This document shows, piece after piece, positions 3,270-60,531 of a stretch of DNA of 64,000 nt. The stretch's first letter is position 1. Every line of letters begins with the position of its first letter. The notes under the pieces were generated by a model that was not told where the DNA came from, did no database searches, and saw nothing but the letters and a program-made list of their open reading frames with translations. The position numbers were made by a program, and so were the translations under genes. The DNA comes from Candidatus Aminicenantota bacterium (lineage in GTDB: Bacteria; Acidobacteriota; Aminicenantia; Aminicenantales; UBA8522), in contig JAFNEO010000028.1 in the NCBI GenBank assembly GCA_017886205.1, forward strand, positions 26,476 to 90,475, read 5' to 3'.

Positions 3270-3410
3270 GATGTGGGTGAGGAAGTCCGTGGACGACTGA
3301 GCGGGCGTCGCGAGGAGCGAAGCGACGTGGCGATCCCGAGGGATTGCTTCGCTTCGCTCGCAATGACAATTTCCTCGCTGGGGAAACGAGCGTGCTGACG
3401 AACCCATATC
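3270..3410 (-). repeat. Dispersed structured intergenic element, family A copy 1
   Basis: Terminal arms GATGTGGGT (3270-3278)/ACCCATATC (3402-3410); internal GTTTCC-CCAGCGA-GGAAA hairpin on minus strand; near-identical to copy at 14437. Confidence 0.8.
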
Positions 3411-3419
3411 TGGCCCTTC

Positions 3420-5159
3420 TCAGTATCCGGCTCCGACGCCGTCGCGACGGGAGTCGGCGCCGCCGTGGATGATCTTCTTATCCCTCAGGACCATGATTCC
3501 CTGAGCGCCGCCGAAATACTTGTCATAGGCCTCGCGGACTTCGACCTCCTGGCCCATCGCTCGAAGAGCGCTGATGACCTCCTCCGGAAACCTGGCTTCG
3601 ACCGCGATCGGCCCGGGCTTTCCCCCGCTCGAAAAAGAGAAGAAGCGCGGCGCCTCGATGGCCTCGTCGAGTCCCATTCCGAACTCGGTTACGTTGAGGA
3701 CGATCTGGGTGAGGGAGGAGAAGATGCGCGTGCCGCCCGGTGACCCTAAAGCCAGGAAGGGCCTTCCGCTTCTGAACAGGATGAGCGGGCCCATCGAACT
3801 CACGGGGCGATGTCCCGGGCCCGGCGCATTGATCGACTGCTCGTCGGACGCGAAATCATCCATGTGGTCGTTGAGGAGGAAGCCGGTCCCCTCGGGCACA
3901 ATCCCAGTCCCGAAGAAATCATTGATCGACTGGGTCAGGGCGACGATGTTCCCGTCCCCGTCAAGGACGCAGAGATGCGTGGTGTTGGCCGCATCTTTTT
4001 CTTCCTGCTTGCACTCCGCATAGGGGTAGCTCTCGAGGGGGCAGTCGTCGCGGAGGCGGGAGGCGACTGCCGCCGCATAGTCCTTGGAGATGAGCCAATG
4101 GACGGGGACTGAGACAAAACCCGGATCTCCGAGGTAGCGCTCCCGGTCGGCAAAGATGAAGCGCAGGGCTTCGCTCATGTGATGGACATAAGGAACGGAG
4201 TTCTGGCCCCACGTCCGGACCGGCCAGCGCTCGATGATATTCAGGAACTGGATGAGATGAAGGCCCCCCGAGGCAGGCGGCGGCGCGGTCAATATCGTGA
4301 CATCCTTGTATTTCCCTTGAAGCGGTTCAAGCTCGAGGGCCTTATAAGAAGCCAGGTCCTCTGCTGTCATGATCCCGCCCTTGGCTTGGACCGCGGCGAC
4401 GAGCTTGCGGCCGATCTCGCCCTGATAGAACTCCTTCACCCCGCTGGCGGCGACCAGCCGAAGCGTCCGGGCGAGGTCGGGATTTCGAAACCGCTCTCCC
4501 GCTTCGTAGGGGAGTCCTTCGTTCAGGTAGCAGCTTCCCTCGGGTACGTTCTTGACCAGCCGCTCATACTCGTCCTTGTTGATGCTGCTGAAAGTGGGGC
4601 TCACGGCGAAACCATGTTCGGCGATGGCGATGGCGCCGGTCAGCGCCTCGGCCATGGTGCGCGTCCCGTACTTGCGCAGAGCGAGATCCCAGCCGGCCAG
4701 GGCCCCTGGCACCGCAACGGCCAGCCCGCTGGACGTGCGCCATTCCTTTTCTTCTTCGCCCCTGTCTTTGAACATGCGGGGCGAAGCGAGCTGCGGCGCC
4801 TTCTCCCGGAAATTGATCACGGTGGTCCGCTTTTCCCGGGCGAGATGGATGATCATGAATCCGCCGCCCCCGATCCCCGAGGCGAACGGCTCGGCCGCGT
4901 TCAAAGCCGCGGCAGTGGCGATGGCGCCATCGACCGCGTTGCCTCCTCTACGGAGCATCTCCAGCCCGGCCTCGACAGCCAGGGGATGCGCGGCCACAAC
5001 CATAGCCCGGCGGCCGACGTAATTGTATGGCGCATGGCGGTCGTCGGGGGGAGGCTGGGTGATTTTCCTCGGCTGTCGACAGCTCAGCGGGAGCAGCGAG
5101 GCGGCGCAGAGTGCCAGACCGACGAGCCCGGTCGCCCTATGGTTTTGGTGCCTGCTCAA
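3420..5159 (-). CDS. ggt: Gamma-glutamyltransferase, predicted lipoprotein
   Basis: TTHLCVLDGDGNIVALTQSINDFFGTG and downstream GGT motifs; lipobox LPLSC; TTG start at 5157-5159 preceded by GGGGAGGA. Confidence 0.88.
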   Translation of the reverse strand: MSRHQNHRATGLVGLALCAASLLPLSCRQPRKITQPPPDDRHAPYNYVGRRAMVVAAHPLAVEAGLEMLRRGGNAVDGAIATAAALNAAEPFASGIGGGGFMIIHLAREKRTTVINFREKAPQLASPRMFKDRGEEEKEWRTSSGLAVAVPGALAGWDLALRKYGTRTMAEALTGAIAIAEHGFAVSPTFSSINKDEYERLVKNVPEGSCYLNEGLPYEAGERFRNPDLARTLRLVAASGVKEFYQGEIGRKLVAAVQAKGGIMTAEDLASYKALELEPLQGKYKDVTILTAPPPASGGLHLIQFLNIIERWPVRTWGQNSVPYVHHMSEALRFIFADRERYLGDPGFVSVPVHWLISKDYAAAVASRLRDDCPLESYPYAECKQEEKDAANTTHLCVLDGDGNIVALTQSINDFFGTGIVPEGTGFLLNDHMDDFASDEQSINAPGPGHRPVSSMGPLILFRSGRPFLALGSPGGTRIFSSLTQIVLNVTEFGMGLDEAIEAPRFFSFSSGGKPGPIAVEARFPEEVISALRAMGQEVEVREAYDKYFGGAQGIMVLRDKKIIHGGADSRRDGVGAGY

Positions 5160-5697
5160 CCGTCTTGTCCTCCCCGAGGATCTTGGCGATCTCCTCCTCG
5201 GTCGGCAGTTCATCCAGACTGTTCAGCCCGAAGTAGGCGAGGAATCGTTCGGTCGTCCGGTAGATCAGGGGATTGCCCGGGCTCTTTTTCCGTCCCGTGA
5301 TCTTGACCAGTTTCTTTTCGAGCAGAGTCTTGATTGTGTACGAGGAGTCGACATTGCGCAGGGCCGAGATCTCGGACAGGGTGATCGGCTGATGGTAGGC
5401 AACGATGGACAGTGTCTCCAAGGAGGCGGAGGACAGCTTGCTCTTGCGGTCGATTTTGAGAAACCGCCTCACCCAGGGATCGAATTCGGGCCGGGTGGTG
5501 AAGACGTAGCCCCCGCCGCTCTGGATGATGGTAATGCCACGTTCGGCGGAAACGGTGCTCTGGAGGAGTTCCTGGAGGGCCTGCTCGACCTCGGCCGGAG
5601 GATGGTCGCTCAGCGTCTCCTTGATTTTTTCGAGTGGAAGCGGCTCCAGGGAGACGAAAATCAGGGATTCGATGATGTCTTTCAGACCGGGTGCCAT
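5137..5697 (-). CDS. scpB: Segregation and condensation protein B
   Basis: MAPGLKDIIESLIFVSLEPL...; winged-helix ScpB motifs (LETLSIVAYHQPIT); start trimmed to 5697. Confidence 0.88.
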   Translation of the reverse strand: MAPGLKDIIESLIFVSLEPLPLEKIKETLSDHPPAEVEQALQELLQSTVSAERGITIIQSGGGYVFTTRPEFDPWVRRFLKIDRKSKLSSASLETLSIVAYHQPITLSEISALRNVDSSYTIKTLLEKKLVKITGRKKSPGNPLIYRTTERFLAYFGLNSLDELPTEEEIAKILGEDKTVEQAPKP

Positions 5698-5699
5698 CG

Positions 5700-6431
5700 T
5701 CACTGCCTCGCTTTGGATTCTCGGCGCAACCAGACCTTGATGGTCTGGAACAGCCGCTCCTGGACGGCCATCACCAGCCGGGCTTTGATGAGTTCGAGCA
5801 GGCTGAAGAAGGAGACGATCGCCTCCTCCAGGTTCTCCTGCCGGTTGAAATACTCCAGGAAATCGAGGACGCTCTCTTTTTCCAGCGTCGCGATGATCTC
5901 TTTCATTTTTTCTTCGAGCGAGTAGTTCTTGCCGCGGACGACCCGGAAATTCTCCGCTTCTTTCCGTTTCATCAGGACGAAGAACGTCTCGGCTAGATCG
6001 AAGAGAGAGACCTCGACCAGGTCGACCTCCCCGAGCTCGGGAAGAGGGGGAAGCACTTCGCGCGTCCACAGAGACAACTGCTCTTCCTCCCGCTCCTTGA
6101 GGATGGAGCAGGCGGCCTTGATCTTCTGGAACTCCACGAGTTGGTCCACCAGAAAACGGCGGGGGTCTTCGCCCTCAGTCAGGGGCTGCTCGCGGGGCAG
6201 GAGCAGCTGCGATTTGATGTGGATGAGCAGCGCTGCCATGAGCACGAACTCCGCTTCCCGGTCGAGGTTAATCTGTTCCTCGCGGCCGAGATAGTCTAGG
6301 TACTCCCTGGTGATGACGGCGATCGGGATGTTGTGGATGTCGATCCTTTTTTTCCTGATCAGGAACAGGAGGAGGTCGAGAGGGCCTTCGAAGACCTCCA
6401 GCCGGACTTGGTAACTTTCCGAGGTCTCCAT
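5700..6431 (-). CDS. scpA: Segregation and condensation protein A
   Basis: FEGPLDLLLFLIRKKRIDIHNIPIAVITREYL; start trimmed to METSESYQ at 6431. Confidence 0.9.
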   Translation of the reverse strand: METSESYQVRLEVFEGPLDLLLFLIRKKRIDIHNIPIAVITREYLDYLGREEQINLDREAEFVLMAALLIHIKSQLLLPREQPLTEGEDPRRFLVDQLVEFQKIKAACSILKEREEEQLSLWTREVLPPLPELGEVDLVEVSLFDLAETFFVLMKRKEAENFRVVRGKNYSLEEKMKEIIATLEKESVLDFLEYFNRQENLEEAIVSFFSLLELIKARLVMAVQERLFQTIKVWLRRESKARQ

Positions 6432-6456
6432 TTCCGTCAGCGGGACATCATTCCTT

Positions 6457-7449
6457 TCAAGTGCCAATGGCGGCTCTGACGGCTTCCATGGTTTTTTGAG
6501 CGGCCTTCTGGGCTCGGGCGTTCCCCTGTTCGAGAATCCCCCAGACGAGGTCCGGGTCGCCTTCGAGCGCTGTCCTTTTCTTCCGGTAGGGCTCAAAGAG
6601 CTTGATCAGGCTTTCGATGACCACCTTTTTGCATTCCAGGCAACCAATGCCGGCCGTCCGGCAGGCCTTGGCCAGCTCCTCCCGGCGCTCATTATCGACG
6701 AAGGCGTGGTGCAGCGTGAAGGCCGGGCAGTCATTCGGTTCACCGGGGTCGGAACGGCGTTTGCGCCGGGTATCGGTCATCATCGGCGCGATCTTGGCCC
6801 GGATGACCTCGGGAGGGTCCTTGAGGTAGATGGCATTGCCGAATGATTTGCTCATCTTCCGGCCGTCCGTCCCGGCCAGCCGCGGCGTCTCGGTCAACAT
6901 GATCTGCGGCTCGGGAAAGACTTCGCCGAAGAGGCGATTGAAGCGGCGGGTGATCTCCCGGGCGAGCTCGAGATGAGCGGCCTGGTCCTCGCCCACGGGG
7001 ACGATATCGGCCTTGTAGAGGATGATGTCGGCCGTCTGCAGGACCGGATAGCCGAGATAGCCATAGGTGTTGATGTCCTTGTCCGCCAGTTCTTTCTGCA
7101 TGTCCTTAAAGGTAGGCACGCGTTCCACCCAGGGAAGGGGAGTGATCATTGAGAGCAGCAGATGGAGTTCGGCGTGCTCCTTGACATCAGACTGAACGAA
7201 GAGCACGCATTTTTGCGGGTCCAGGCCGATACTGAGCAAGTCGATGGCCATCTCCAGAGTGTACTCCTTGATGATCTTCGAGTTCTGGTACTCCGAGCTC
7301 AAGGCGTGCCAGGTGACGATCGAGTAGAAGCACTTGTATTTGTCCTGGAGGAGGAGCCAGTTGCGCATGGCGCCGGCGTAGTTGCCCAGGTGGGCGGGGC
7401 CGGTGGGCCGGATGCCGCTGAAGACGGTCTTCCTTTTCTGTTCGCTCAT
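6457..7449 (-). CDS. trpS: Tryptophanyl-tRNA synthetase
   Basis: FSGIRPTGPAHLGNYAGA and GRKMSKSFGN class I motifs. Confidence 0.95.
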   Translation of the reverse strand: MSEQKRKTVFSGIRPTGPAHLGNYAGAMRNWLLLQDKYKCFYSIVTWHALSSEYQNSKIIKEYTLEMAIDLLSIGLDPQKCVLFVQSDVKEHAELHLLLSMITPLPWVERVPTFKDMQKELADKDINTYGYLGYPVLQTADIILYKADIVPVGEDQAAHLELAREITRRFNRLFGEVFPEPQIMLTETPRLAGTDGRKMSKSFGNAIYLKDPPEVIRAKIAPMMTDTRRKRRSDPGEPNDCPAFTLHHAFVDNERREELAKACRTAGIGCLECKKVVIESLIKLFEPYRKKRTALEGDPDLVWGILEQGNARAQKAAQKTMEAVRAAIGT

Positions 7450-7453
7450 ATTC

Positions 7454-8134
7454 TCAGAGAAAAATAAGGGTATAGATGATGATCTCGATGGGTCGGATGA
7501 TGATACTCAGAACCCCCATATAGATCAGGCCCAGGACGATGAGGAATCCGTAGGGCCGCAGCCGGTCATACTTTTGGGCGGCCCCTTCAGAGAGGAGCCC
7601 CATCAGGACCCCGCTTCCGTCGAGAGGCGGCACAGGGATGAGGTTGAAGACAACGAGGTAAGTGTTCACCAAAACGCCGTAGAAGAGGATGATGGCCAAG
7701 CCCTCCAGGGGATGGAAGCCGCGCGTCAGTCCGCCCCGGCCCACCAGGAAGTTCTTGAGGAAGACGGAGGCACCCGGGCTGGTCAGTTTGATCAGGATGA
7801 TGGCCAGCAGAGAGAAAACGGCGGCCAGGATGTTCGCCATCGGCCCGGCAGCCGAGATCCAGAGGTTGTCCCGCCGCGGGTTTCTCAGGTTGAAGGGATT
7901 GACCGGAACGGGCTTGGCCCAGCCGAAGGGGGGGGCCTTCATTATGACGAGAAGCAGGGGCAGAAGGACCGTCCCGAAGGGGTCGATGTGGGCAATCGGG
8001 TTGAGGGTCACCCGGCCCATGCTCCGGGCGGTGTCGTCCCCGAACTTCGAGGCCGCCCAGCCATGCGCGGCCTCATGAATGGTGATGGCGAAGAGGAGGA
8101 CGAACAGGCTGATGACGAGCGTTATGATGTTCAT
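7454..8134 (-). CDS. Site-2 protease family (M50) membrane metalloprotease
   Basis: HEAAHGW zinc motif, NLIPVPPLDGS motif, multiple TMs. Confidence 0.9.
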   Translation of the reverse strand: MNIITLVISLFVLLFAITIHEAAHGWAASKFGDDTARSMGRVTLNPIAHIDPFGTVLLPLLLVIMKAPPFGWAKPVPVNPFNLRNPRRDNLWISAAGPMANILAAVFSLLAIILIKLTSPGASVFLKNFLVGRGGLTRGFHPLEGLAIILFYGVLVNTYLVVFNLIPVPPLDGSGVLMGLLSEGAAQKYDRLRPYGFLIVLGLIYMGVLSIIIRPIEIIIYTLIFL

Positions 8135-8231
8135 TTCAAATCAGACGTATTTATAGCATATCGGGCGCCCAAAAAAAAGGGACAGTCAGCGGCGGGGACC
8201 GACCCCCGATAGATTATCGACGAGGCGAAAG

Positions 8232-9809
8232 CTAGCTCTTGAGGATCTTCTCGACTTCGTCCTTGTCTACGTCCATGATGAAGGGGATGCCGCTGATATT
8301 GGCGGCGTCCTTGGTCAGGGCGGCGATATCGTCGCGGGTGATATAGCCGAGGGAGAACTTGCGGTTTCCGGCCATGAGCTGGCGGACGCCCTGGCTCAGG
8401 CGCCTGAAATAGGAGTAGAGCCCCATCGCCCCGGTCGGGAGCTCTTTAAACCGCTCCCCGTATTTTTGCTTCAGGTCGGGAGCCGTGACGAAAATCTCCT
8501 CGGCGCTCGAACCGAACCGCTCGACATAGACCGGGATCTGGCCTTCCTGGATGCGCTTGCCGATGGTCTTGCCGACCATGTTCGCGGCCATCGGACCTCT
8601 GGCCATGGCCACCGCCTTGACATAGGGGGCTCCGATGGCCAGCGCCTTGAAGATCTGGTCCTCGAAAGTGATCCCGCCGGCGAAAACGATGTCGGGGAGG
8701 TACTCGCCGGCCTTGGCCAGTTGATGGGCGTACTGGTAGGTGAGCGACCAGATCTCGACACTCGGGATGCCCCATTCGTTCATCATCCGCCAGGGACTCA
8801 TGCCCGTCCCGCCGCCCGCTCCGTCCACGGTCAGCATATCGATCTTGGCCTTGGACGAGAACTTCACGGCCCGGGCCAGGTCGGCGGGCCGGTAGGCTCC
8901 GGTCTTTAAGAAGACGTACTTCGCGCCTGCCCTGCGGAGCTCTTCAACCCTTTTCATAAAGCTCTCTTCCTCGACCATGCCCATGCGGGAGTGGCGCTCG
9001 AATTCCTTGAAGCTTCCCTTCTCGAAGGCCTGGATGACACTGGGGTCCTCGGGGTCGGGGAGGACGATGTAGCCCCGTCTCTTGAGCTCCTGGGCCTTGG
9101 CCAAGCTCTTGATCTTGACCTCACCGCCGATGTCCTTGGCTCCTTGTCCCCACTTGAGCTCGACCGCCTGGACGCCCAGCTTGTTGATGGCGTACTCCTG
9201 GACTCCTAGCCGGGTATCTTCAACATTGGCCTGGACGACCACCGTGCCGTAGCCGTCCTGCCACTTCTGGAAGAGGCCGACGCGCATCTCCATGTCGGGC
9301 GAACGCACGACCCGGCCGTTCTTGATCTCGGCGCCCTCGTCCATGGCGCAGACGTTTTCGCCGACGGTCAGGATGACGCCGCAGATGGCCGCGCCGATGG
9401 CTAGGCCCGGCCAGTTCTGCTTGGCGACGTTGGTCGAGCCCATTCCGCCGAGGACGAAAGGCACCCGCAGCTTGATGCCTTTGTCCCGTCCGACGGCGGT
9501 CTCGATGTTTACCTTTTCGAAGGTCGCCTTGTCACTGTCCGCCTCGACCCCGTAGGCCCCGACGGCCGTCCCCATGATGCTGAAGTGGGAGAGGTCGACC
9601 GGGTATTCCTTCTCCGAGGCCGCCGTGATGATGCCGAACGGCTGCGGATAAAGGACCTCCGCTCCCCGGTAGGCCGATTTGCCGATCTCGCACATGCCGA
9701 TGCAGCCGTCCACACAGGTGACGCACATGCCGCTGAACGGGCTGATCGACCCTTCTGTTCTGTTCTTGGTCAAAGTCGCCGCGCTTCGGTTGAGTTTCGT
9801 ATACGCCAT
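8232..9809 (-). CDS. FMN-binding glutamate synthase-like protein (GltB central/FMN domain) with N-terminal CX2CX3CX3C cluster
   Basis: TVDGAGGGTGMSPWRMMNEWGIPS and GGITFEDQIFKALAIGA motifs; CVTCVDGCIGMC near N-terminus. Confidence 0.88.
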   Translation of the reverse strand: MAYTKLNRSAATLTKNRTEGSISPFSGMCVTCVDGCIGMCEIGKSAYRGAEVLYPQPFGIITAASEKEYPVDLSHFSIMGTAVGAYGVEADSDKATFEKVNIETAVGRDKGIKLRVPFVLGGMGSTNVAKQNWPGLAIGAAICGVILTVGENVCAMDEGAEIKNGRVVRSPDMEMRVGLFQKWQDGYGTVVVQANVEDTRLGVQEYAINKLGVQAVELKWGQGAKDIGGEVKIKSLAKAQELKRRGYIVLPDPEDPSVIQAFEKGSFKEFERHSRMGMVEEESFMKRVEELRRAGAKYVFLKTGAYRPADLARAVKFSSKAKIDMLTVDGAGGGTGMSPWRMMNEWGIPSVEIWSLTYQYAHQLAKAGEYLPDIVFAGGITFEDQIFKALAIGAPYVKAVAMARGPMAANMVGKTIGKRIQEGQIPVYVERFGSSAEEIFVTAPDLKQKYGERFKELPTGAMGLYSYFRRLSQGVRQLMAGNRKFSLGYITRDDIAALTKDAANISGIPFIMDVDKDEVEKILKS

Positions 9810-9863
9810 GTTTACCTCCTCAGGTTCGCTTTTTTATTCGAAGCAATGGGTTCCATCGCTCCC

Positions 9864-10562
9864 TCATTTCGGCTCTTTTTCGGCCGGAGTCTCCTGGACG
9901 CAGGTCCCGCATCGCCCGGCGTCATACATCCAGCACTGGAGCTCGTCGTAGGCGTCCAGGCAGGTGGGCTCCATGGTCAAGCAGGCGTTACAGACCGCGG
10001 TCTCGGCCTCGGGGCCCTGGCAACGCAGTTGGCAGGCCGGACAGATATAGATGCAGCCGCCGCAGAGCCGGCATTCTTCCGAGCGGACGTCGAACGGTGT
10101 CGAGATTTTCCTCTTGCTGCCCCGGTTCTGGAAGCCGATGGCCCGTCCGTCCATCTGCTCGGCGCACATCCGGACGCAGAGACCGCAGAGGATGCACTCT
10201 TCGTTGCGGGGTGTGAACCGCATCTTGGTAACCCCGAACTTGGAGGCCAAGTCCTGGATCTGCTTGGAAAAAGGAGCCACCGAGAGCATGAGTTCGATCA
10301 TCATCCGTCGGGCCTCAACAACGCGCCTCGTATCGGTGTGAACGACCAGGCTTTCCTCGGCAGGATAGGTGCAGGAGGAGACGAGCTTCGTCCGCGGCTC
10401 CACCCCGATCTCGACCAGGCAGAGCCGGCAGCCGCCGTAGGAGCTCAGCCCTTCATTGTAGCAGAGCGTGGGGATCGCGAGGCCGTAGAACTTGGCCGTC
10501 TCCAGGACCGTCCAGCCCTCTTCGGCCTGGACATCGAGGCCGTTGAGCCTGAAGGTGATCAT
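9864..10562 (-). CDS. NuoG-N/HoxU-like 2Fe-2S and 4Fe-4S iron-sulfur subunit
   Basis: MITFRLNGLDVQAEEGWTVLETAKFYGLAIPTLCYNEGLSSYGGCRLCLVEI; CILCGLCVRMC; start corrected to 10562, ATGA overlap with upstream gene. Confidence 0.85.
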   Translation of the reverse strand: MITFRLNGLDVQAEEGWTVLETAKFYGLAIPTLCYNEGLSSYGGCRLCLVEIGVEPRTKLVSSCTYPAEESLVVHTDTRRVVEARRMMIELMLSVAPFSKQIQDLASKFGVTKMRFTPRNEECILCGLCVRMCAEQMDGRAIGFQNRGSKRKISTPFDVRSEECRLCGGCIYICPACQLRCQGPEAETAVCNACLTMEPTCLDAYDELQCWMYDAGRCGTCVQETPAEKEPK

Positions 10563-14192: not shown

Positions 14193-14436
14193 GGTTTCCT
14201 CCAGAATGTGATGGGTTTTTTTATGGCCTCAGAATCCCGGCGGTTTGGGTGAGGCAACGGGGAAGGGGAGTCATCGGGACGCCGGTCGATGGCGTCAAAG
14301 GCGCAACTCAGGAAAGGCCGATAAAAAATATCTATGACTCCTTCCTATCAGAAAACGATCAATAATACAGACAGCTGATTAATAAAGAAGGTCTTTATAG
14401 CAAAATGAATTCCCGTTTGTCAAGAAGAAGAGGCTC

Positions 14437-14579
14437 GGATTCAGGCTTGTCAGCCCGCTCGTTTCCCCAGCGAGGAAACTGTCATTGCGAGCGAAGCGAA
14501 GCAATCCCTCGGGATCGCCACGTCGCTTCGCTCCTCGCGACGCCCGCTCAGTCGTCCACGGACCTCCTCGCCCGAATCC
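14437..14579 (+). repeat. Dispersed structured intergenic element, family A copy 2
   Basis: Arms GGATTCAGGC/GCCCGAATCC; loop CCAGCGA hairpin; core nearly identical (reverse-complement) to 3270-3410. Confidence 0.8.
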
Positions 14580-14651
14580 TTCGCCTTGGCAATGAAGAGT
14601 GATCCGTGTCCGCTGCGCCGCGGAGGGCTTTCTGAGGGACTCCGACCTTTG

Positions 14652-14748
14652 CCGGAGACACCGACCTTCTTCAAGGCCCCACTTGATTCTCCAAGGGGGG
14701 CAGGGGGGATTAATATGATTAAATCAAATTCCTAATAGGTGTCTCCGG
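14652..14748 (+). repeat. 97-nt structured element, family E copy 1
   Basis: Perfect 11-nt terminal arms CCGGAGACACC/GGTGTCTCCGG; inner GCCCC..CTTG/CAAG..GGGGC hairpin; GGGGGGATTAATATGATT. Confidence 0.75.
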
Positions 14749-14759
14749 AATATAAACGG

Positions 14760-14852: not shown

Positions 14853-14861
14853 GCAAATAGA

Positions 14862-20314: not shown

Positions 20315-20318
20315 CCGC

Positions 20319-32786: not shown

Positions 32787-33371
32787 ATGATCCTGGTGCT
32801 GGCGGGTCCGGTCCATTCGGGGAAGACGACCTTCCTGAGGAGGCTCTTGCCGGACCTCGAAGCGCTGAGGCTTCCCGTCTCCGGGTACTTGAGCCTCTAT
32901 GTAATGAACAAGGGGGAAACCGCCGGCTATGATCTTTTCGATATCAAAAAGGGCAAGTCGATACCATTCCTCCGGACAGAAGGAGAGCCCGGCTGGCAGA
33001 CGGTCGGGCCCTATTTTTTTCTCCCCCCAGGGCTTGAGGCCGCGGCGGCCGCCATCCTTGGCTATAAGCCAGGAGAGATCCTCATCGTCGATGAGGTCGG
33101 ACCACAGGAGCTCGCCGGCCGGGGCGTCTGGCCGGCCCTGTCGGAGGTCCTTTCGGGGCCCTTGTTCGACTGTCTTCTGGTCGTGAGAAAGCCGCTGCTC
33201 GATGACCTCCAAGATCGGCTGGGGAAGACACCTGTCAATGTGTTTGACGTCGAGCGGCCGGACGTCTGTCCCGCGCTCCTCCAGGCTCTTAAAGAGCTGA
33301 GGGCGGTCCGGAATGAGCGCCGCGATAAGTGTAACTTGGCAGCGCCTCGGAAGGGAAGAAGCGGGAGATGA
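32787..33371 (+). CDS. P-loop nucleoside-triphosphatase/mobilization-type NTPase
   Basis: AGPVHSGKTTFLRRL Walker A; ILIVDEVGPQEL Walker B. Confidence 0.7.
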   Translation: MILVLAGPVHSGKTTFLRRLLPDLEALRLPVSGYLSLYVMNKGETAGYDLFDIKKGKSIPFLRTEGEPGWQTVGPYFFLPPGLEAAAAAILGYKPGEILIVDEVGPQELAGRGVWPALSEVLSGPLFDCLLVVRKPLLDDLQDRLGKTPVNVFDVERPDVCPALLQALKELRAVRNERRDKCNLAAPRKGRSGR

Positions 33372-33415
33372 ACGAGCCGTTGCGCTCTCGAAGTCAGACC
33401 CGACTGGGCTAGGCT

Positions 33416-33697
33416 ATGACCAAAGTCAAGGTCAAGTTCTTCGGTCCTTTCCGCGACCTGTTCGGCGGCCGCGAACTGGAGGCCGAGCTTCCCGAGGAGG
33501 TCCGGCTCCGGGATCTCCTCCGGCGGCTGTGCGATACCTCAGACCGGGAAAAACAAGTTTTCGCCGGTGCGGAAGCCCTCCAACCGCATGTGGTCATTAT
33601 GAAGAACGGAATCCCGGTCCGGAGGCCGGGTGGGCTGGAGACCCCATTGCAGGACGGCGACATCATCGCTATCTTCCCCTTTCTAGGCGGAGGATAG
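33416..33697 (+). CDS. MoaD/ThiS family sulfur-carrier protein
   Basis: VKFFGPFRDLFGG...LQDGDIIAIFPFLGGG with terminal GG. Confidence 0.85.
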   Translation: MTKVKVKFFGPFRDLFGGRELEAELPEEVRLRDLLRRLCDTSDREKQVFAGAEALQPHVVIMKNGIPVRRPGGLETPLQDGDIIAIFPFLGGG

Positions 33698-33702
33698 GCT
33701 CA

Positions 33703-33833
33703 GGGTATGGGATTCGTCAGCCCGCTCGTTTCCCCAGCGAGGAAACTCGCTCCGCATCCTCCTTCGCTCTTCTCTCCTTTCAGTCGAGAAACCGTGCCCG
33801 CTCAGTCGTCCACGGACTTCCTCACCCACACCC
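33703..33833 (+). repeat. Dispersed structured intergenic element, family A copy 3
   Basis: Arms GGGTATGGG/CCCACACCC; GTTTCC-CCAGCGA-GGAAAC hairpin; central segment differs from copies 1, 2 and 4. Confidence 0.8.
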
Positions 33834-33845
33834 TTCGCCGACCTT

Positions 33846-34120: not shown

Positions 34121-34149
34121 TTGTCATCAGCAGTATGATTTGTTATGCT
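34121..34149 (+). promoter_or_regulatory. Predicted promoter of AOR operon
   Basis: TTGTCA, 17-nt spacer, TATGCT. Confidence 0.35.
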
Positions 34150-37874: not shown

Positions 37875-38022
37875 CCGCTCACCCTCCTTTCTCGTCCGGG
37901 TTTGATGACCGGATCAGCCTTCACCCCGCCCGGAGGTGATCCGCTTCAAGATCTTTTCGTCCCGACCTCCATCCGGCCTCTTTATATCACACGTTTTGGG
38001 TCTCTTCAATCGCATAGGCTCA

Positions 38023-38156
38023 GGAGAGTCCCCCAGAAAGACGCGAATTTTTCCCGGCGAGAAAAATTCGCTCCCTGTCCTCGCTCCGCTCTCCTCTCGG
38101 CAAGCCGAGAGGAACCATGCCCGCTACGCTGCGGAGGGCTTTCTGAGGGACTCTCC
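38023..38156 (+). repeat. Dispersed structured intergenic element, family C copy 1
   Basis: 18-nt arms GGAGAGTCCCCCAGAAAG/CTTTCTGAGGGACTCTCC (1 non-WC pair); hairpins GCGAATTTTTC-CCGGCGA-GAAAAATTCGC and CCTCTCGG-CAAG-CCGAGAGG. Confidence 0.85.
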
Positions 38157-38325
38157 CTCGCCTTCATAACTAACCAGGAGAGCGGCTCCCCTCGAAAAAC
38201 GTCTCGGGAAGGCTAAGCCTGAGAGGTCGCTTTACCATTCCCAAATCGCTGGCTTTAATAATGGCTTCGCTCCTGCACAGGAACCGTTTCGCTTGGAGCT
38301 CGTATTATAATAAAGAGGAGTTTAC

Positions 38326-49329: not shown

Positions 49330-49339
49330 GGAAAGCTCC

Positions 49340-49732: not shown

Positions 49733-49859
49733 TGGAGCACCTCCTTTTTATGATGGGGCAGACATCGCCATTGCTGGAATCTTGTCTATGCCTGCCCTCG
49801 GCATCAATATATACTACGAACGCTCGGGAGACAAGGTTCACTTGGCTCGGCGGAGGCTC

Positions 49860-50009
49860 GGGTATGGATTCGTCAGCCCGCTCGTTTCCCCAGCGAGGAA
49901 TGTCGTTGCGAGGAACCCGGTGACGAAGCAATCTCCACGGGATCGCCACGGCGTCTTCGGCGCCTCGCGACGCCCGCTCAGTCGTCCACGGACTTCCTCA
50001 TCCACACCC
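49860..50009 (+). repeat. Dispersed structured intergenic element, family A copy 4
   Basis: Arms GGGTATGGA/TCCACACCC; CCAGCGA hairpin. Confidence 0.8.
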
Positions 50010-50021
50010 TTCGCCGACCTT

Positions 50022-50118
50022 GGCCAAACCGCCGTCCTAATTCAAGCCCCTCGTAATTCCATAAGAGGGGAAGGGGAGATTAATATGATACGAATGAAGT
50101 CTTGAGGGTGGTTTGGCC
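50022..50118 (+). repeat. 97-nt structured element, family E copy 5
   Basis: Arms GGCCAAACCGCC/GGTGGTTTGGCC (one G-T pair); same inner CCCCTC/GAGGGG stem as copy 3. Confidence 0.8.
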
Positions 50119-50253
50119 CCCGGGCTTAAGCCCGCTCCGCTGCGAAGGGCTTTCGTGAAGGACTCCCCCTCGCCTAACCAATTATAGAGTACCGGCCGGT
50201 GCCTTTAGGCCAAGATTCGGATATAATAGGTAGGAAACCGATGGAGGGCAGGA

Positions 50254-50979: not shown

Positions 50980-51057
50980 TCGGAAAGCTGACCGGCATCA
51001 AGATCGTCGCCGGCCGGCTCTTGTATTATGGTTACACATCAGGAAACAGATATCTCT

Positions 51058-53001: not shown

Positions 53002-53028
53002 CGTCCGCTCCTTCGTCTCCGGGGGATT

Positions 53029-54738
53029 CTATTGGACGGCGCTGATCTTCCAGTCTTTTCCCTGTCTCCGGAGATGCCAGGTCTTCTGCCCCTCGAAGAC
53101 GATCTTCCTCTGCCCGGTTTTCTTGTAGACGGCCGTGAGCAGCTGTGAATAGGCGGCCGTGGCGCTTGTCCGGCTGGAGAAACTCAGTGAGACCTTGGAG
53201 ATTATGGACTTGATGCCGTCGTAGCCGTTGAAGAGGAGTTTGTACTCGGCCTGAAGCGAATCGGCCAGGGCCGGCGAGTTAAAAAGGCTGAGGACGGTGA
53301 GCAGGTCTTTGTTTTCCTCGGCCACCCGGTGGCGCTCGATCAGGGCGGTTATCTCCGGCTTCGCCAGGGCCGTGTCAGCCTGGAAGAGATATTTTTGCGC
53401 ATCTTTATTATCCTTGTCGACCTTGAGGACCTTCTCCATGTCCGTGACGCACTGGGCGTAGTTGCCGCCGGCATAGCTGGAGATCCCGGACTGGAGCAGG
53501 GGAGCTACCTGGGGGGCCAGGATCTCGGCTCTGGCCTTATTCAGGTACTCCTTGGCCGGGACGTTGGCCGGATCGCGTGCCAGGATCTCATCGGCCAGCC
53601 GGACGGTTTCCTGGTAGGCCTTGCCGTCAAAACTTTCCCGCAGCTTGGCCTGGCCCTCGTCGCTCGGAGCGGTCAGCGCAGCGGCCGTCCCGGCGGCCGG
53701 GCCGGACGTACGGATGACCGAGTTCAGGCCCTCTTTCTTGATGGTCTCCAGGTTCTGGGCCAGGTCGGAGGGCTTCTCAGAGCGTCCTGAGAAGAGCAGG
53801 TATGCTCCCCCGGCGATGATGGCGACAAGGGCCGCCGCCCCCGCCAGGACAAAGGTTATCTTTCTTTTTTTCGGCTCCCCGCCGGCCTCTTTGCCGAACT
53901 CGTAAGCCAGCGTGGCTTCGGCCATGCGGCTGGGATTTTCCAGGTCGGAGATCATCTCCCGGCAGCTCTGATAGCGGTCTTCAGGGTTCTTGGCCAAGGC
54001 CCTGCGGACGACGCTCTCGTAGCCGCCGTGGAGCTCCTTATTGATTTCGGTGACCCGCTGGGGCTCTTCGTTGACGATCCGATAGACGATGGTGGACATG
54101 TTGTCCCCGCCGAACGGCTTCTTCCCGGTGAGGAGCTCATACAAGATGACGCCGAGGGCGAAGATATCCGACCGCTTGTCCACCGTCTGCCCCTTGACCT
54201 GCTCGGGAGACATATAGCTTAGCGTCCCGACCGTCGTTCCGGCCTGGGTCAGGGTCGAGGTCTCGATCCGGGCGACCCCGAAATCGGCCAGGAAGGGCTG
54301 GCCGGATTTATCGATCAGGATGTTGGCCGGCTTGATGTCCCGGTGGACGATCCCACCCTGGTGGGCGAAATCCAGGGAGTCGGAGACTGGCTTCAGGGTA
54401 TCGATGATCTCCTGGGGCGAGAACGATTTGCCGGAATCGATCACCGTCTGGAGGCTCGGCCCGTCGACATACTGCATGACGATATAGGTTAGGTCCTTGT
54501 CCCGGACGACGTCGTAGATGGTGATGATGTTGGGGTGGTTCAGCCGGCCGGCGGCCTTGGCCTCCCGGATGACCCGGGTCAGCAGTTCTTCCTTCTCCAT
54601 GCCCTCAGTGAGGGTGTCGAAGCGGATGGTCTTGATGGCCACCTCCCGTTCGATGTCGGGGTCCAGCGCCTTGTAGACGATCCCCATGCCGCCCTTACCG
54701 AGAGTGCCGAGGATCTTGTACTTGCCGATTTGCTTCAT
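53029..54738 (-). CDS. Serine/threonine protein kinase with TM and TPR-containing extracytoplasmic region
   Basis: LGKGGMGIVYKALD, HRDIKPANILID, DFGVARIE, GTLSYMSPEQ. Confidence 0.95.
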   Translation of the reverse strand: MKQIGKYKILGTLGKGGMGIVYKALDPDIEREVAIKTIRFDTLTEGMEKEELLTRVIREAKAAGRLNHPNIITIYDVVRDKDLTYIVMQYVDGPSLQTVIDSGKSFSPQEIIDTLKPVSDSLDFAHQGGIVHRDIKPANILIDKSGQPFLADFGVARIETSTLTQAGTTVGTLSYMSPEQVKGQTVDKRSDIFALGVILYELLTGKKPFGGDNMSTIVYRIVNEEPQRVTEINKELHGGYESVVRRALAKNPEDRYQSCREMISDLENPSRMAEATLAYEFGKEAGGEPKKRKITFVLAGAAALVAIIAGGAYLLFSGRSEKPSDLAQNLETIKKEGLNSVIRTSGPAAGTAAALTAPSDEGQAKLRESFDGKAYQETVRLADEILARDPANVPAKEYLNKARAEILAPQVAPLLQSGISSYAGGNYAQCVTDMEKVLKVDKDNKDAQKYLFQADTALAKPEITALIERHRVAEENKDLLTVLSLFNSPALADSLQAEYKLLFNGYDGIKSIISKVSLSFSSRTSATAAYSQLLTAVYKKTGQRKIVFEGQKTWHLRRQGKDWKISAVQ

Positions 54739-54926
54739 GGTTGGGCTAAAAAAGGAGAAAGAAATCCCCGCTCAGTTTCCTGTTCCTTTCATAAAAGAGG
54801 TAGTTAATACATATCCGATTGGACCGCTCCTTGTCAAGCAGATTAATTTCGTTGGCGGGGCTCATAGTCGTGGCCGTCCTGGCGGATCAGCTGGCCGGGC
54901 GTTAGAACACTCAGCCCAGCACTAAA

Positions 54927-54955
54927 TTGACTATTCGAGGATGTTCCGCTACAAT
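54927..54955 (+). promoter_or_regulatory. Predicted sigma70 promoter of tRNA(-tilS)
   Basis: TTGACT, 17-nt spacer, TACAAT. Confidence 0.6.
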
Positions 54956-54965
54956 TTTTGAACCC

Positions 54966-55039
54966 GGCGGCGTAGCTCAGTTGGTCAGAGCATGCGGCTC
55001 ATATCCGCAGTGTCGGGGGTTCAAATCCCTCCGCCGCCA
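54966..55039 (+). tRNA. tRNA with CAT anticodon (elongator Met more likely, Ile2 not excluded)
   Basis: GGCGGCG/CGCCGCC acceptor; TGCGG-CTCATAT-CCGCA anticodon arm; GGGGG-TTCAAAT-CCCTC T arm; no encoded CCA. Confidence 0.95.
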
Positions 55040-55105
55040 TTGGCGCTCCCTCAGAGCTAAATTTTATTCATTTTATAGAAATCACCGGTAAACCAGGGTT
55101 AGCAG

Positions 55106-56473
55106 ATGCTCCTGCCTCAGGTCAAGAAGACGATCGCTCGTTATGGCCTCCTCGAGAGAGGAGACAAAGTCCTGGTGGCCTGCTCGGGCGGCGCCGATTC
55201 CTCGGCCCTCCTGACCGCCCTCTTGGAGCTCCGCGAGGAGTATGCGCTCCGGCTAGCCATCGGCCATTTTAACCACCGTCTCCGCCGCGCCGCTGACTAT
55301 GATGAGCGCTTCGTCATCCGGATGGCGCAGAAGCTCGGGCTTCCCGTTTATGTGAGGAGAGAGGACATCCGTGCTCTTGCGGCCAAGCAGGGTCTGAATA
55401 TCGAGGAAGCGGGCCGGGAGCGGCGCTACAAGTTCCTCCGGGAAACGGCCGGCAGGGTGGAGGCCTCCCGCATCGCCACCGCACATACCCTGACCGACCA
55501 GGCGGAGACCGTTCTTATGCGGATTCTCCGCGGAAGCGGACCCACCGGCTTGGGCGGTATCGCCCCTTGCATCGACGGGCTGATCATCCGTCCTTTGATC
55601 GAGGTCGAGCGCCGGGAAGTCGAGGCCTATCTTCGGGCCCGGAAGATCCCCTATCGCGAGGATGAAACCAACCGGGACCTGCGCTTCCAGCGCAGCCGGG
55701 TCCGTCTGCGGCTTATTCCGTACCTCGAGAGGAACTTCGAGCCCAAGATTGTGCAGCATCTGGGAAGATTAGCTGAGATCAGCCGCGAGGAGGAGCAGGT
55801 TTGGGAACAGTATTCCCAAGCCGAGGCGAAACGGGCGATCTTCCGCAAAGAGGGGAGGATCCTTCTAGATGCCCGGCGCCTCTCGTCTATGTCGCCGGCT
55901 CTGGGCCGCCGTCTGGTCCGGGCCTTTTTGAGTACGATCAAGGGCGATTTGAGGAGATTTTCATTCCGCGATGTCGAGGCCGTCCGCTGTCTGGCCGAGC
56001 GAAAGGAAGCGACGCTTCCGGGAAAGCTCGCCCTCAGGCGGGAGAAAGGCCTGATATCGGTTAAAGAGAGAACAGAGCCCGGTCTCCGTTACCAGTATGA
56101 ATGGGACGGGAGAAAGAAGCTGGTGATCCCCGAAATTAGGCTTTCTTTCGCAGGGAAGTTAATAAAAAAGGGGAAGACGAGGCTGCCCTTGTATAATGAT
56201 AACCGGAGGGCGCTGCTCGACGCAGGGAAGGTCTGTTTTCCTCTGCTCGTCCGGAGCCGGCGAGAAGGAGATCGCTACCGTCCTCTGGGCTCGCCCGGCC
56301 GCAAGAAGCTCAAGGAGATCATGCGGGCGAAAGGCATTCCGTTGGACGAGAGGGACCGGCACCCAGTATTCTTGTCGCGGGGAGAAATCATCTGGGCTCT
56401 AGGGCTTCCCATCGCCGAGGACTTCAAAGTCACCCCCGCCACCCAGCGAATTTATGTTATAGAAAAACCTTAG
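55106..56473 (+). CDS. tilS: tRNA(Ile)-lysidine synthetase
   Basis: VACSGGADSSALLTALLEL PP-loop; HFNHRLR; TAHTLTDQAETVLMRILRGSG. Confidence 0.93.
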   Translation: MLLPQVKKTIARYGLLERGDKVLVACSGGADSSALLTALLELREEYALRLAIGHFNHRLRRAADYDERFVIRMAQKLGLPVYVRREDIRALAAKQGLNIEEAGRERRYKFLRETAGRVEASRIATAHTLTDQAETVLMRILRGSGPTGLGGIAPCIDGLIIRPLIEVERREVEAYLRARKIPYREDETNRDLRFQRSRVRLRLIPYLERNFEPKIVQHLGRLAEISREEEQVWEQYSQAEAKRAIFRKEGRILLDARRLSSMSPALGRRLVRAFLSTIKGDLRRFSFRDVEAVRCLAERKEATLPGKLALRREKGLISVKERTEPGLRYQYEWDGRKKLVIPEIRLSFAGKLIKKGKTRLPLYNDNRRALLDAGKVCFPLLVRSRREGDRYRPLGSPGRKKLKEIMRAKGIPLDERDRHPVFLSRGEIIWALGLPIAEDFKVTPATQRIYVIEKP

Positions 56474-56617
56474 CTTTTTTCTCCGCCACTTCCAACCATA
56501 GCAACGACGGGTGGCACGGTGCCAGTCCCCGCAACGCCCGCAGCGGAAGGGGTTCCCCACGGGGGGATGGGTGGAGCGAGGACGGACGGGGACGCGCCGT
56601 GACAGGACCCGTCCTTT

Positions 56618-58516
56618 CTATAAATAGTTTTCTTTCCAGATTTCGAAGACGAGCAGCGCCCAGAGCTGGTGGCTGTAATTTTTCCGGCCAGCCAGGTGAG
56701 CGGCCATCATCTTCTGCACCGGCTTAGGGTTGATGAACCCGGCTTCCCGGATCCGTTTCTCGCTCAGGTGGTCCAGCATCAGCTCCCGGAGCTCCCCCCG
56801 CAGCCAGTGTTTGATCGGGATGCTGAACCCTTCCTTGGGCCGGTAGATGTTCTCTCGGGGGAGGAGGCGCTCCATCGTCTTCTTGAAAATCCACTTGGTG
56901 GTCAGGCCGTGGAGCTTGAGCCGGCCGTCAAGCCCGAACACGAATTCGACGAGCTTGTGGTCGAGGAGCGGCTCCCGGGCTTCGAGGGAAGTGGCCATGC
57001 TCATCCTGTCCACCTTGACCATGATGTCATCAGCCAGGTAGGTCTTGAGGTCGAGGTAGAGCTCTCCTGTGATGGGGTCGAAGGCCGGCAGCTTCTCAAA
57101 GACCTCCCGGAATGGTGACAACCTGCGGACCTCTTCGATTCCTCCCATCTGCTCTAGAAACCCGGCGGAATAGAGCCTTGACTTATCTCTCCGGGATAGG
57201 AACATCATCCAGCGCAGGTGCCTGTTTTCGGCCCCGTGCTCAAAGCCCTGGAGGAACCGCTGCAGCTTGTTCCAGGCGCCTTTTTTCTTGGCCCTGGGTG
57301 GGAGGCGGTTTATGAAGGGGGATAACAAGCTCCCCGCCAGCCTGACCGGCCCGCAGGAAGCGATCTTCTGCGCCTGGTAGTGCTCATAGCCGCCGAAGAC
57401 TTCATCCCCCCCGTCGCCGGATAAAATCACCTTGACGTGCGGCCGGGACATTTGTGAGACCAGAAAGGTGGGAAAGATGGAAAAATCGCCGAACGGCTCG
57501 TCGAGGTGGCGGATGAGCTTTTCAGTGAGGTCCAGCGCCTTGGGTTCGATGATAAACTCTTCGTGCTCGGTGGCGAACCTCTGGGCGGCCCGGCGGGCGT
57601 AGGGAAGCTCATTGTAGGAAGTCTCTTCAAAGCCTATGGAAAAGGTCTTCAGGGGGGAGGCGCCGAGCTCCCGCATCAGCCCGACGATGGTCGAGGAGTC
57701 GATCCCGCCGCTCAGGAACGCGCCCAGCGGCACGTCACTCACCAGCCGTAGTTTGACGGACTCCTTGAGCAGATCGTAGAGCCTGTCCATGATCTCCGGC
57801 AGGTTCTTTTCTTTCGGCCCGCCTTCCTCCCTGGCCGCGGTCTCGATATCCCAATATTCTCTGACTTTGACCCGGCCGTCCTTATAGGCGAGCCAATGGC
57901 CGGCCGGGAGCTTGTGGATGTTGCGGAAGATGCTCAGCGGTGCCGGAATGTATTCGAGCGTCAGGAAAAAATCCAGCGCTCTCGGTTCAACCTCGCGCTT
58001 GACCCGTGGATGAACAAGGATGGCCTTGAGCTCGGAGCCGAAGACGAGAGTCCGGTCGTCGAGAAGGGTGTAATAGAGCGGCTTGATTCCCAGCCGGTCA
58101 CGCACCAGGAGAAGCCTCTGCTCCTGTTCATCCCAGAGGGCGAAGGCGAACATCCCCCGGAGCCGCTGGACAAAGTCTTGCCCCCATTGCTCGTAGGCGT
58201 GGACGATGGTCTCGGTGTCAGTCCGGGTTGAAAACCTGTGCCCGCGCGAGATGAGCTCTTCGCGGAGCTCCGGGAAATTATAGACCTCGCCGTTGTGGGC
58301 GATCCAGATGGAGCCGTCCTCGTTGCTGAGCGGCTGGTGGCCGCCCGCAAGGTCGATGATGCTCAGCCGGCGCGCGCCCAAACCGGCCCTGGTCCCGGCG
58401 AAGATGCCCTCATCGTCCGGTCCGCGGTGGGCGATGGTCCGGCACATGGCCTGGAGGAGAGTGGCCGATGCCGGCTCAGACGAGGAGGGGGATGCGATTC
58501 CGCAGATGCCGCACAT
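56618..58516 (-). CDS. asnB: Asparagine synthase (glutamine-hydrolysing)
   Basis: MCGICGIASP; RGPDDEGIF; FLSGGIDSSTIVGLM. Confidence 0.93.
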   Translation of the reverse strand: MCGICGIASPSSSEPASATLLQAMCRTIAHRGPDDEGIFAGTRAGLGARRLSIIDLAGGHQPLSNEDGSIWIAHNGEVYNFPELREELISRGHRFSTRTDTETIVHAYEQWGQDFVQRLRGMFAFALWDEQEQRLLLVRDRLGIKPLYYTLLDDRTLVFGSELKAILVHPRVKREVEPRALDFFLTLEYIPAPLSIFRNIHKLPAGHWLAYKDGRVKVREYWDIETAAREEGGPKEKNLPEIMDRLYDLLKESVKLRLVSDVPLGAFLSGGIDSSTIVGLMRELGASPLKTFSIGFEETSYNELPYARRAAQRFATEHEEFIIEPKALDLTEKLIRHLDEPFGDFSIFPTFLVSQMSRPHVKVILSGDGGDEVFGGYEHYQAQKIASCGPVRLAGSLLSPFINRLPPRAKKKGAWNKLQRFLQGFEHGAENRHLRWMMFLSRRDKSRLYSAGFLEQMGGIEEVRRLSPFREVFEKLPAFDPITGELYLDLKTYLADDIMVKVDRMSMATSLEAREPLLDHKLVEFVFGLDGRLKLHGLTTKWIFKKTMERLLPRENIYRPKEGFSIPIKHWLRGELRELMLDHLSEKRIREAGFINPKPVQKMMAAHLAGRKNYSHQLWALLVFEIWKENYL

Positions 58517-60336
58517 TATTCCTTGGGGACAAGGTCGAGCTCGAAGAAGACGCCCAAGTATCTTCGCTCCAGGCTGGCCGGGTCCTCATAGTAGGGGATG
58601 GCCCCCTTGGCCGCCCTGACCTTGATCCGGTAATGGTAGCGCTGCTCCATCTGGAAACCGTTCCCAACCTGGAAACGGAGTGTCCCCCACTGCTTGGACT
58701 GGAGGACGATCTTCTGCCTCCGGCCCTCGACCTTGACTGTGATCTCGTTATTGCTTCGGGGGTTATTGAGGAGCCGGACTCCGACCTCCCGGAGCGGATA
58801 GTAGGTCTTGAGGATAAACTCGCAGGTCTTATCGCCCCGGGTCCAGATGCCGGTGGGCTCAAGCTTAGGGTGGAAATTGTCGTCCAGGAAATGGAGGAAT
58901 TCTCTCTGGGGATAGGGTTTGTCCGGCCAGATGTGCACCCGGAAGGCGTCGGGGTTGGTGTTGGTGGGAAAATTGTTGACCTGGGTCATCTCGAGAGGCA
59001 GCGCTTTGATCGGGAACTTCTTGGCGTGGGTGGCGGGCTGGGCCGAAGAGCGGAAGGGACTGACCAGGATCGGGGAGATGAACACGGCCGCGACTACCCA
59101 GATTAGGGCGACCTGGCGCCAGCTCTTCTTCTCGGCCGGCAGGAAGAGGAACAGGGGGTAGATGTTGAGAAAGTACCGGTTGGCCAGGGTCCCTCCTCCG
59201 CCGCCGTAGAACTCGGGAGTGAGGACGATGTAGATGAGGATCCCACCGGCCAGGGCGGCCAGGGTCAGCCAGTCGTGGAACCGGCGTTTCGCCCGGAAAA
59301 ACAGGAGGAGAGCAAGAAAGGCCGGGAAGAAATACCAGGCGACTCCGGTGAAGCGGCCGAAGAAATAATAAAAGATATTGTAGAGGATGAACTTGGGTGG
59401 AATCAGGAAACGCTGGAAGTAGTTCTCCGAGGTCATGGTGCTGCCGAGGCTATCAAAGGTCAGGTTGTCTTTCTCCAGAGGGAACGTGCCGATGAACGTC
59501 TTGCGTGCACCGCCCTGGTAGTTCCAGTCTGAGGTGAGAAGATAGTTGGCTCCAAAAAGGAGCCCGATGGTTAGGGAAAAGATGGCGGCAAGAACGAGCG
59601 CCTTAAAGAATTTTTTCTCATAGAGGGCGTAAAGGACGAGCGGGCCCAGGAGGACGATATTGGGCGGCTTGGAGAAGACCGCGACACCGACCAGGAAGGC
59701 GGCCAGGTAATCCGTTCCCGGCGAGAGGAGGAAGGAATGGGGCGCTGCGCCCACGCCCGAGGGGTGCGGCGTTTCCCGGCTTTTGATCTTATAGATCCAG
59801 AGGAAAGCGATGATGAAAGCCAAGCAGAAGTTGAAAAAGTCGGGCGAGATCCAGATATAGTACACCCCGGCCACAGAACCAAAGAGGAAGGTCAAAAGGT
59901 AAGAGATCGAGGTCAGTGGCGAATTGGCCCGGGAGATATAGGCGAACCCCAAAAGCATGACGACGAGCAGGAGGAAGGAATGGAAGACCAGGAAGCCGTT
60001 ATACCCGAATGTCCGGACGAAGGGCGCGGCGAACAGAGAATACGCCCAGGACTTGGCGAAGAATATCTTGCCGTTCCGAGCCTTTTTGAGGAAGATGCCC
60101 TGCGGCCCGGCATCGAAGTCGTGGTAGTAGCGGGCCAGGTCCTTCTTGGTGTATTCCAGGTCGAGGTCATGGGCGATGCTCTGGGTCAGGGCGCAGTAGA
60201 CCGCCTGGTCGGCGAACAGGAAATTCTGGTCGATAGTCGGGAGGTTGATGAACAAAGAGAATCCGAGTGAGAAAAGGAAAACGAGGAAGATAATAGTGAG
60301 GGCGGCCTTTTTCGGCTGGGCTTTGTCCTCGAGCAT
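58516..60336 (-). CDS. Multi-TM glycosyltransferase-like (GT-C/PMT-type) membrane protein
   Basis: 606 aa, multiple TMs, long extracytoplasmic C-terminus; shares terminal base with asnB. Confidence 0.6.
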   Translation of the reverse strand: MLEDKAQPKKAALTIIFLVFLFSLGFSLFINLPTIDQNFLFADQAVYCALTQSIAHDLDLEYTKKDLARYYHDFDAGPQGIFLKKARNGKIFFAKSWAYSLFAAPFVRTFGYNGFLVFHSFLLLVVMLLGFAYISRANSPLTSISYLLTFLFGSVAGVYYIWISPDFFNFCLAFIIAFLWIYKIKSRETPHPSGVGAAPHSFLLSPGTDYLAAFLVGVAVFSKPPNIVLLGPLVLYALYEKKFFKALVLAAIFSLTIGLLFGANYLLTSDWNYQGGARKTFIGTFPLEKDNLTFDSLGSTMTSENYFQRFLIPPKFILYNIFYYFFGRFTGVAWYFFPAFLALLLFFRAKRRFHDWLTLAALAGGILIYIVLTPEFYGGGGGTLANRYFLNIYPLFLFLPAEKKSWRQVALIWVVAAVFISPILVSPFRSSAQPATHAKKFPIKALPLEMTQVNNFPTNTNPDAFRVHIWPDKPYPQREFLHFLDDNFHPKLEPTGIWTRGDKTCEFILKTYYPLREVGVRLLNNPRSNNEITVKVEGRRQKIVLQSKQWGTLRFQVGNGFQMEQRYHYRIKVRAAKGAIPYYEDPASLERRYLGVFFELDLVPKE

Positions 60337-60394
60337 CGAGCTTGACCTGTCCTTAGTGGAATATCACAGTCGCACCGAAAATTCAACGAGGTTC

Positions 60395-60531
60395 GGGAGA
60401 GTCCCTCCGAAAGACGCGAATTTTTCCCAGCGAGAAAAATTCTCTCCCTGTCCTCGCTCCGCTCTCCTCTCGGCAAGCCGAGAGGAACCGTGCCCGCTAC
60501 GCTGCGGAGGGCTTTCGTTAGGGACTCTCCC
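60395..60531 (+). repeat. Dispersed structured intergenic element, family C copy 2
   Basis: Arms GGGAGAGTCCCTCCGAAAG/CTTTCGTTAGGGACTCTCCC; GAATTTTTC-CCAGCGA-GAAAAATTC; CCTCTCGG-CAAG-CCGAGAGG. Confidence 0.85.

Follow-up and report, generated by a model that had tools for sequence, protein, structure and literature searches.

We analyzed a 64,000-nucleotide (nt) stretch of the genome of a Candidatus Aminicenantota bacterium (GenBank assembly GCA_017886205.1, contig JAFNEO010000028.1, positions 26,476 to 90,475 of the forward strand; hereafter, the window) and found that it carries copies of a short non-coding module of about 130–150 nt, which we named R1. At least 36 copies are present in the window's genome (3.5 Mb in 58 contigs). 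R1 is probably a previously undescribed intergenic non-coding family that extends across the order (Aminicenantes). The explanation that we favor, with some reserve, is that R1 is a family of mobile intergenic modules, specific to the order, which are non-autonomous, constrained in structure, and act through their folded strand. The main surprise of the analysis is the fixed position of the element beside a −35 hexamer or a stop codon. The numbers reported below are limited by the relatedness of the copies and by the incompleteness of metagenome-assembled genomes (MAGs).

The fold of R1 and its covariation

Complete copies of R1 read AGGCTC...TCGCCT on the strand that contains the CCAGCGA motif, and GGCGAGG...GAGCCT on the opposite strand, which we call the R strand. 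The architecture of the R strand comprises a closing stem, P1/P2, in which the sequence is free and the pairing is kept, a P3 stem inside which the conserved strands GCGGGCA and GAGCG flank a variable hairpin (P4), and a hairpin (P5) whose loop, CTCGCYGGG, is conserved. The GCGGGCA and GAGCG strands and most of the P5 loop are invariant or nearly so. From 29 cores, RNAalifold proposed 20 base pairs, 14 of which have changes on both sides. When 57 copies were aligned to the model, a procedure that favors the structure, 96.2% of the cells were paired, and the number of cells with a double change was 131 (26.3 ± 4.5 in shuffled controls and at most 29 when the pairing partners were slid). The P1 arms are unpaired in the model, so P1 offers an independent test. 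In 45 non-redundant copies from many genera, the mean energy of a P1 formed by the copy's own arms was −41.0 kcal/mol, compared with −24.0 kcal/mol (standard deviation 6.7) for swapped partners, and in 27 copies the own partner outranked all others of the 45. Examples of such arms are GGGTATGGG/CCCACACCC, GGGCCAATTGGC/GCCAACAGGCCC, and GGCATTGATACAGGTAA/TTACCTGTATCAATGCC. Switches of whole paired segments were also seen by eye in P2 (GAAAAC/GTTTTC, AGAACC/GGTTCT, and GAAATC/GATTTC) and P3 (AGGCT/AGCCT, GGTT/AACC, and CAAC/GTTG). An earlier sequence-only reading of the window had proposed that the closing arms of its elements are unlike and still complementary, and that this reflects selection on a fold. 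The first proposal holds beyond chance, and the second is borne out by strong covariation relative to the shuffled and slid controls and by the P1 arm comparison.

The same reading had taken isolated A-C positions in the closing stem, which read as G-U on the other strand, as a hint of an RNA made from that other strand. Genome-wide, 39 of 45 copies fold better as the R strand than as its complement, and among 93 distinct P5 hairpins isolated G-U pairs outnumber A-C by 35 to 3, with a weaker trend in P1; as regards the strand, the hint was therefore right. The G-U excess marks the strand and not the chemistry (RNA or DNA) of the folded molecule, because single-stranded DNA tolerates G-T as well.

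Copies in the window and nested repeats

The six copies originally noted in the window have correct coordinates and all lie between genes, the element itself being slightly longer, with a GGC...GCC pair outside the arms then listed. They are real, and as a census of the genome they are a large underestimate. The A and C types described there do belong to one family; they are merely two sub-families of a single element, with a third, D, in the same genome. Of the window's copies, A3, C1, and C2 are intact, whereas A1, A2, and A4 are damaged, their P4/P3 part having been replaced by 61–70 nt of another repeat (GTCATTGCGAG...). The features are listed below; the strands given for the copies are those of the folded R strand (the reverse of CCAGCGA), and the nested repeats were read from the sequence.

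3270..3413, + strand: A1, P4/P3 part swapped for another repeat (cmsearch match 3272–3413, + strand, 32.8 bits)
3307..3367, − strand: GTCATTGCGAG-type repeat inside A1
14394..14423, − strand: promoter-like TTGACA-18-TATAAA in the R-strand flank, beginning 8 nt past GAGCC of A2
14431..14582, − strand: A2, nested replacement as in A1 (cmsearch match 14435–14576, − strand)
14481..14541, + strand: GTCATTGCGAG-type repeat inside A2
14596..14642, − strand: C-type half-module (P1 5′ arm to GCGGAC/GCGGGC) adjoining A2, a sequence match
33697..33839, − strand: A3, intact (cmsearch 109.7 bits); the element end and the convergent stop codon TAG at 33695–33697 have the G in common
34121..34149, + strand: promoter-like TTGTCA-17-TATGCT, at the distal end of the A3 array
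37981..38009, − strand: promoter-like TTGAAG-17-TATAAA in the R-strand flank, 7 nt past GAGCC of C1 (by eye)
38015..38163, − strand: C1, intact (cmsearch 93.5 bits), missing from the sister species G002
49855..50012, − strand: A4, nested replacement (cmsearch match 49858–50006, − strand)
49902..49971, + strand: GTCRTTGCGAG-type repeat inside A4
60358..60386, − strand: promoter-like TTGAAT-17-TATTCC in the R-strand flank, 3 nt past GAACC of C2 (weak match, by eye)
60389..60536, − strand: C2, intact (cmsearch 88 bits), at distance 0 from the stop codon TGA at 60537–60539

In the window's genome, 54 matches to family A, 45 to family C, and 15 to family D were found, counts that take in partial copies and overlap between the families. 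Family D turned up in the flanks of copies of the other families. Half-modules that run from the P1 5′ arm to GAGCGGGCAYGG are numerous and are chained 5′ of full copies. Foreign repeats inside R1 lie mostly in or around P5, and on landing there they replace sequence and do not merely add to it. One of them is a 145-nt repeat (GGGGGTTCCAAGGGG...CCCCTTGGTCGCAGGGC...GGGAGGCAGGGAGC), present in P5 of copies from several genomes (L118, L131, L143, L150, L030, and L098) and without an Rfam match in the scanned loci. We considered the resulting 'long form' (L118, L131, L143, L150, and L030) as R1 with an extra domain and rejected this, as the 145-nt sequence stands alone in L282; it is therefore an unrelated nested repeat. 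Others are AAAAAGGGGACAGTCCCC-type palindromes, which have replaced P5 in several R1 copies of the single-contig genome G041 (L397, L398, L399, L400, and L401).

Two side observations concern the surroundings of these copies. The gene at 33313–33697, which ends at A3, encodes the C-terminus -FPFLGGG-stop, like that of ThiS/MoaD-type sulfur carriers. Another repeat found across the order, module E (GGAAGGCTAAACCTTCGAGGTCGC and GGCGTTAAAAACCTGA), lies at about 38179–38310 of the window and in the flanks of L005, L011, L023, and L026; it often encloses R1, similar sequence occurs in G017 and G041 flanks, and it may be another structured family.

Position beside promoters and gene ends

In the window's genome, R1 has a single orientation and fits flush into the space between gene ends and −35 hexamers. 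A strong sigma-70-like promoter that matches TTGACA/TATAAT at 9 or more of 12 positions directly follows the 3′ end of the R strand in 22 of 42 copies, and its −35 hexamer begins 4–5 nt past GAGCC in 15 of those 22. At every other offset, 0–3 such matches were found per 41 copies, and the opposite side of the element had none at offset 0. A convergent neighbor often ends in a TAG stop codon that takes its last bases from the element's AGGCTC (A3, L015, L017, L039, and L061); L041 and L042 probably share TAG bases too, at the outer one of two ends in tandem. C2 occupies the entire gap from the TGA of the upstream gene to the next −35 hexamer, the promoter in this case being a weak match. Just 5′ of the element, a T-rich tract is present in 17 of 33 copies, compared with 1 in the control stretch. 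With gene directions inferred from codon usage and no gene caller, the gene upstream of the folded strand was co-directional in 11 of 27 resolved cases.

Clear flush-promoter cases also occur in several other genera (L081, L093, L098, L111, L120, L290, and L387), and further repeat layers there usually lie outside R1. As a separate observation, R1 in other genera (L132, L130, L123, L391, and L399) is surrounded by a palindrome that forms the outermost layer (AAGCATTTCCATTTCCGTGAT / ATCACGGAAATGGAAATGCTTCC) and can itself end at a −35 hexamer (L399). The TTGAC word as a sequence target was ruled out: it is missing next to convergent genes, and what seems to matter is therefore not the word but the gap or the promoter itself. 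An intrinsic terminator at the 3′ end was unconvincing, with a T content that is moderate and derives in part from the TTG of the −35 hexamer. In an attempt to detect an orientation bias relative to the replication strand, GC skew at 20 points along G041 gave no clear origin or terminus.

Turnover between sites and species

The history of individual sites was followed by comparison with the sister species G002, which is about 88% identical here. At the A3 site, G002 has GGATAGGCTCACCCTCGCCTTGTCA, which is just the two element ends joined, and at the C1 site a whole block of ~330 nt is missing. Of 21 G002 element loci that were examined, at least 11 correspond to loci of G000 that also bear an element. 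At four shared loci the element type differs: three have C in one genome and D in the other (L331/L063, L332/L061, and L107/L068), and the fourth is the A2 site, with an A/D chimera versus A. Chimeras joined at GAGCGGGCA are found elsewhere too (L148). Even between orthologous sites the arms differ and pairing alone is kept. Copies of R1 thus appear and disappear, nest within each other, and swap halves at short conserved motifs, in agreement with the mobility that the sequence-only reading had raised as one of two options.

Distribution in the order and database matches

An exact-pattern scan of GTDB species genomes returned 46 stretches, most of them titled Candidatus Aminicenantes. With a covariance model built from the 29 R1 cores, R1 was detected in 57 of the 94 genomes sampled from the window's order, spread over six of its seven sampled families; up to 36 candidates were scored per genome, so copy counts are lower bounds. 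The single-contig genome G041 has 28 copies. In the same search no genome was positive in f5/g10, f4/g5, and f2/g14, and f6/g12 gave a single weak match. R1 was also seen in MAGs titled Actinobacteria and Clostridiales (L109, L124, L145, L152, and L133), which are probably mislabeled and not cases of transfer. R1 had no match in Rfam, as scanned with the window at gathering thresholds and with 16 loci at E values up to 1–5; tRNA alone reached the gathering score. A literature search turned up no description of Aminicenantes repeats or RNAs.

Interpretation and alternative explanations

According to the explanation that we favor, a trans-acting machinery would recognize the module as a folded single strand, either RNA or DNA laid bare during replication or transcription. 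Insertion or replacement would take place at a narrowly fixed point immediately upstream of promoters, and often the inside of an older copy would be replaced with the downstream promoter left intact. Several results weigh against this explanation. In other genera the position is diluted, with a flush promoter in 11 of 74 copies relative to ~3 expected from background, and for P1 alone the ratio of G-U to A-C (34 to 20, p = 0.076) is not significant. G002 is an incomplete, fragmented MAG, and the absences rest on two well-assembled sites. Inspection of flanks by eye showed no target-site duplication, with two empty sites for comparison, one of which keeps both element ends. It is also unusual for an end recognized by a transposase to have outer arms that vary freely. 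No gene was found inside R1 or consistently beside it, and no transposase, reverse transcriptase, or other gene could be tied to the family. A bolder form of the mobile-module explanation, which we regard as doubtful, is that R1 represents a new class of element, i.e. mobile and strand-specific, selecting or selected for the gap between a gene end and a −35 hexamer, carrying a fold instead of a sequence, and moved by a putative non-Y1 machinery acting on the folded strand.

The main rival is that R1 is chiefly a functional boundary element (a 3′-end protector, terminator, or insulator) between a transcription unit and the next promoter, with copying between sites by gene conversion and not by transposition. 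The flush placement against stop codons and −35 hexamers, with C2 filling its gap exactly, the T-rich tract on the 5′ side, and sites that are common to the sister species even where the element type has changed would all fit such a role, which is compatible with a mobile module. With a co-directional upstream gene in only 11 of 27 resolved cases, a terminator on the R strand would often have nothing to terminate. Together with the lack of a consistent T run past the 3′ end, the complete absence of R1 from several clades of the order, and the appearance and disappearance of whole copies, this makes a mainly boundary-related function appear unlikely to us. We consider it improbable that R1 is a palindrome of the repetitive extragenic palindrome (REP) type, mobilized on folded single-stranded DNA by a REP-associated tyrosine transposase (RAYT; Y1, HUH family). 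High copy number, intergenic location, and a strand-specific fold are shared with REPs, and Y1 genes are present in 75 of the 94 genomes, with two in the window's genome. However, these two genes (L076 and L077) are flanked by palindromes of their own (GGTGCCAGGCATCTAATT; GGGGTCAGGTCTCAACAATCAACAAAT) and not by R1. No Y1 gene was detected in the element-rich genomes G058, G054, and G028 (90–91% complete; 14, 23, and 10 copies, respectively), almost every f6/g12 genome has Y1 but not R1, and R1 is longer than REPs, which measure 20–40 bp according to PMC3733652. Given this mismatch in distribution across the 94 genomes, Y1/RAYT was rejected as the mobilizer, and the RAYT/REP origin raised by the sequence-only reading is unsupported. 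Very little weight is given to the idea that R1 is a short RNA-based retroelement or a guide-RNA-like part of a larger mobile system with its protein acting in trans. The strand-specific fold with conserved unpaired motifs, the T tract upstream, and the lack of a visible target-site duplication would be in line with it; against it, there is no linked protein gene, and no promoter for R1 itself was found, though no systematic search was made. The specific identity with HEARO/omega-RNA, also raised earlier, is unsupported, as neither HEARO nor any other Rfam family matched.

Comparison with known systems places the mobile-module explanation in context. Like REP/REPIN/BIME sequences and their RAYT (TnpA-REP), R1 is dispersed, intergenic, multi-copy, hairpin-forming, arranged in mosaic arrays, and presumed non-autonomous, but it is a multi-helix fold with free closing arms, conserved internal loops, and no Y1 association. 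In place of the GTAG/CGTC tags of the two large REP super-families, its ends are GGCGAGG/GAGCC in the window's genome and vary elsewhere. The enterobacterial repeats RU-1 and RU-2 (PMC2229807, PMC2759123), which resemble miniature inverted-repeat transposable elements (MITEs), and other small mobile sequences are similarly 100–170 nt long, intergenic, non-coding, and multi-copy. R1 differs from them in arms that are unlike between families yet complementary, without conserved terminal repeats, in the lack of a visible target-site duplication, and in its fixed place relative to the −35 hexamer. A classical MITE of a DDE transposase has conserved terminal inverted repeats, whereas the R1 arms keep pairing only. 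HEARO/omega-RNA, the IscB-associated RNA, is likewise a multi-copy structured RNA tied to mobile DNA, but no IscB-type gene was noticed next to R1 in the loci read. The stem-loops derived from IS200/IS605, for example in Borrelia plasmids (PMC2775950), share with R1 a folded single strand and orientation specificity; unlike them, R1 ends in variable stems, with no specific target word abutting an end.

In summary, R1 is a well-supported nucleic-acid fold without a name, conserved across an order of a candidate phylum that has no model organism. It combines features that are unusual together: arms that keep their pairing and not their sequence, a single orientation, a 4–5-nt spacing to the −35 hexamer, and sites that are retained while their content is swapped. 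R1 bears on how structure-defined repeats spread where no RAYT is present, and it offers a testable example of an element situated between transcription units with neither neighbor broken.

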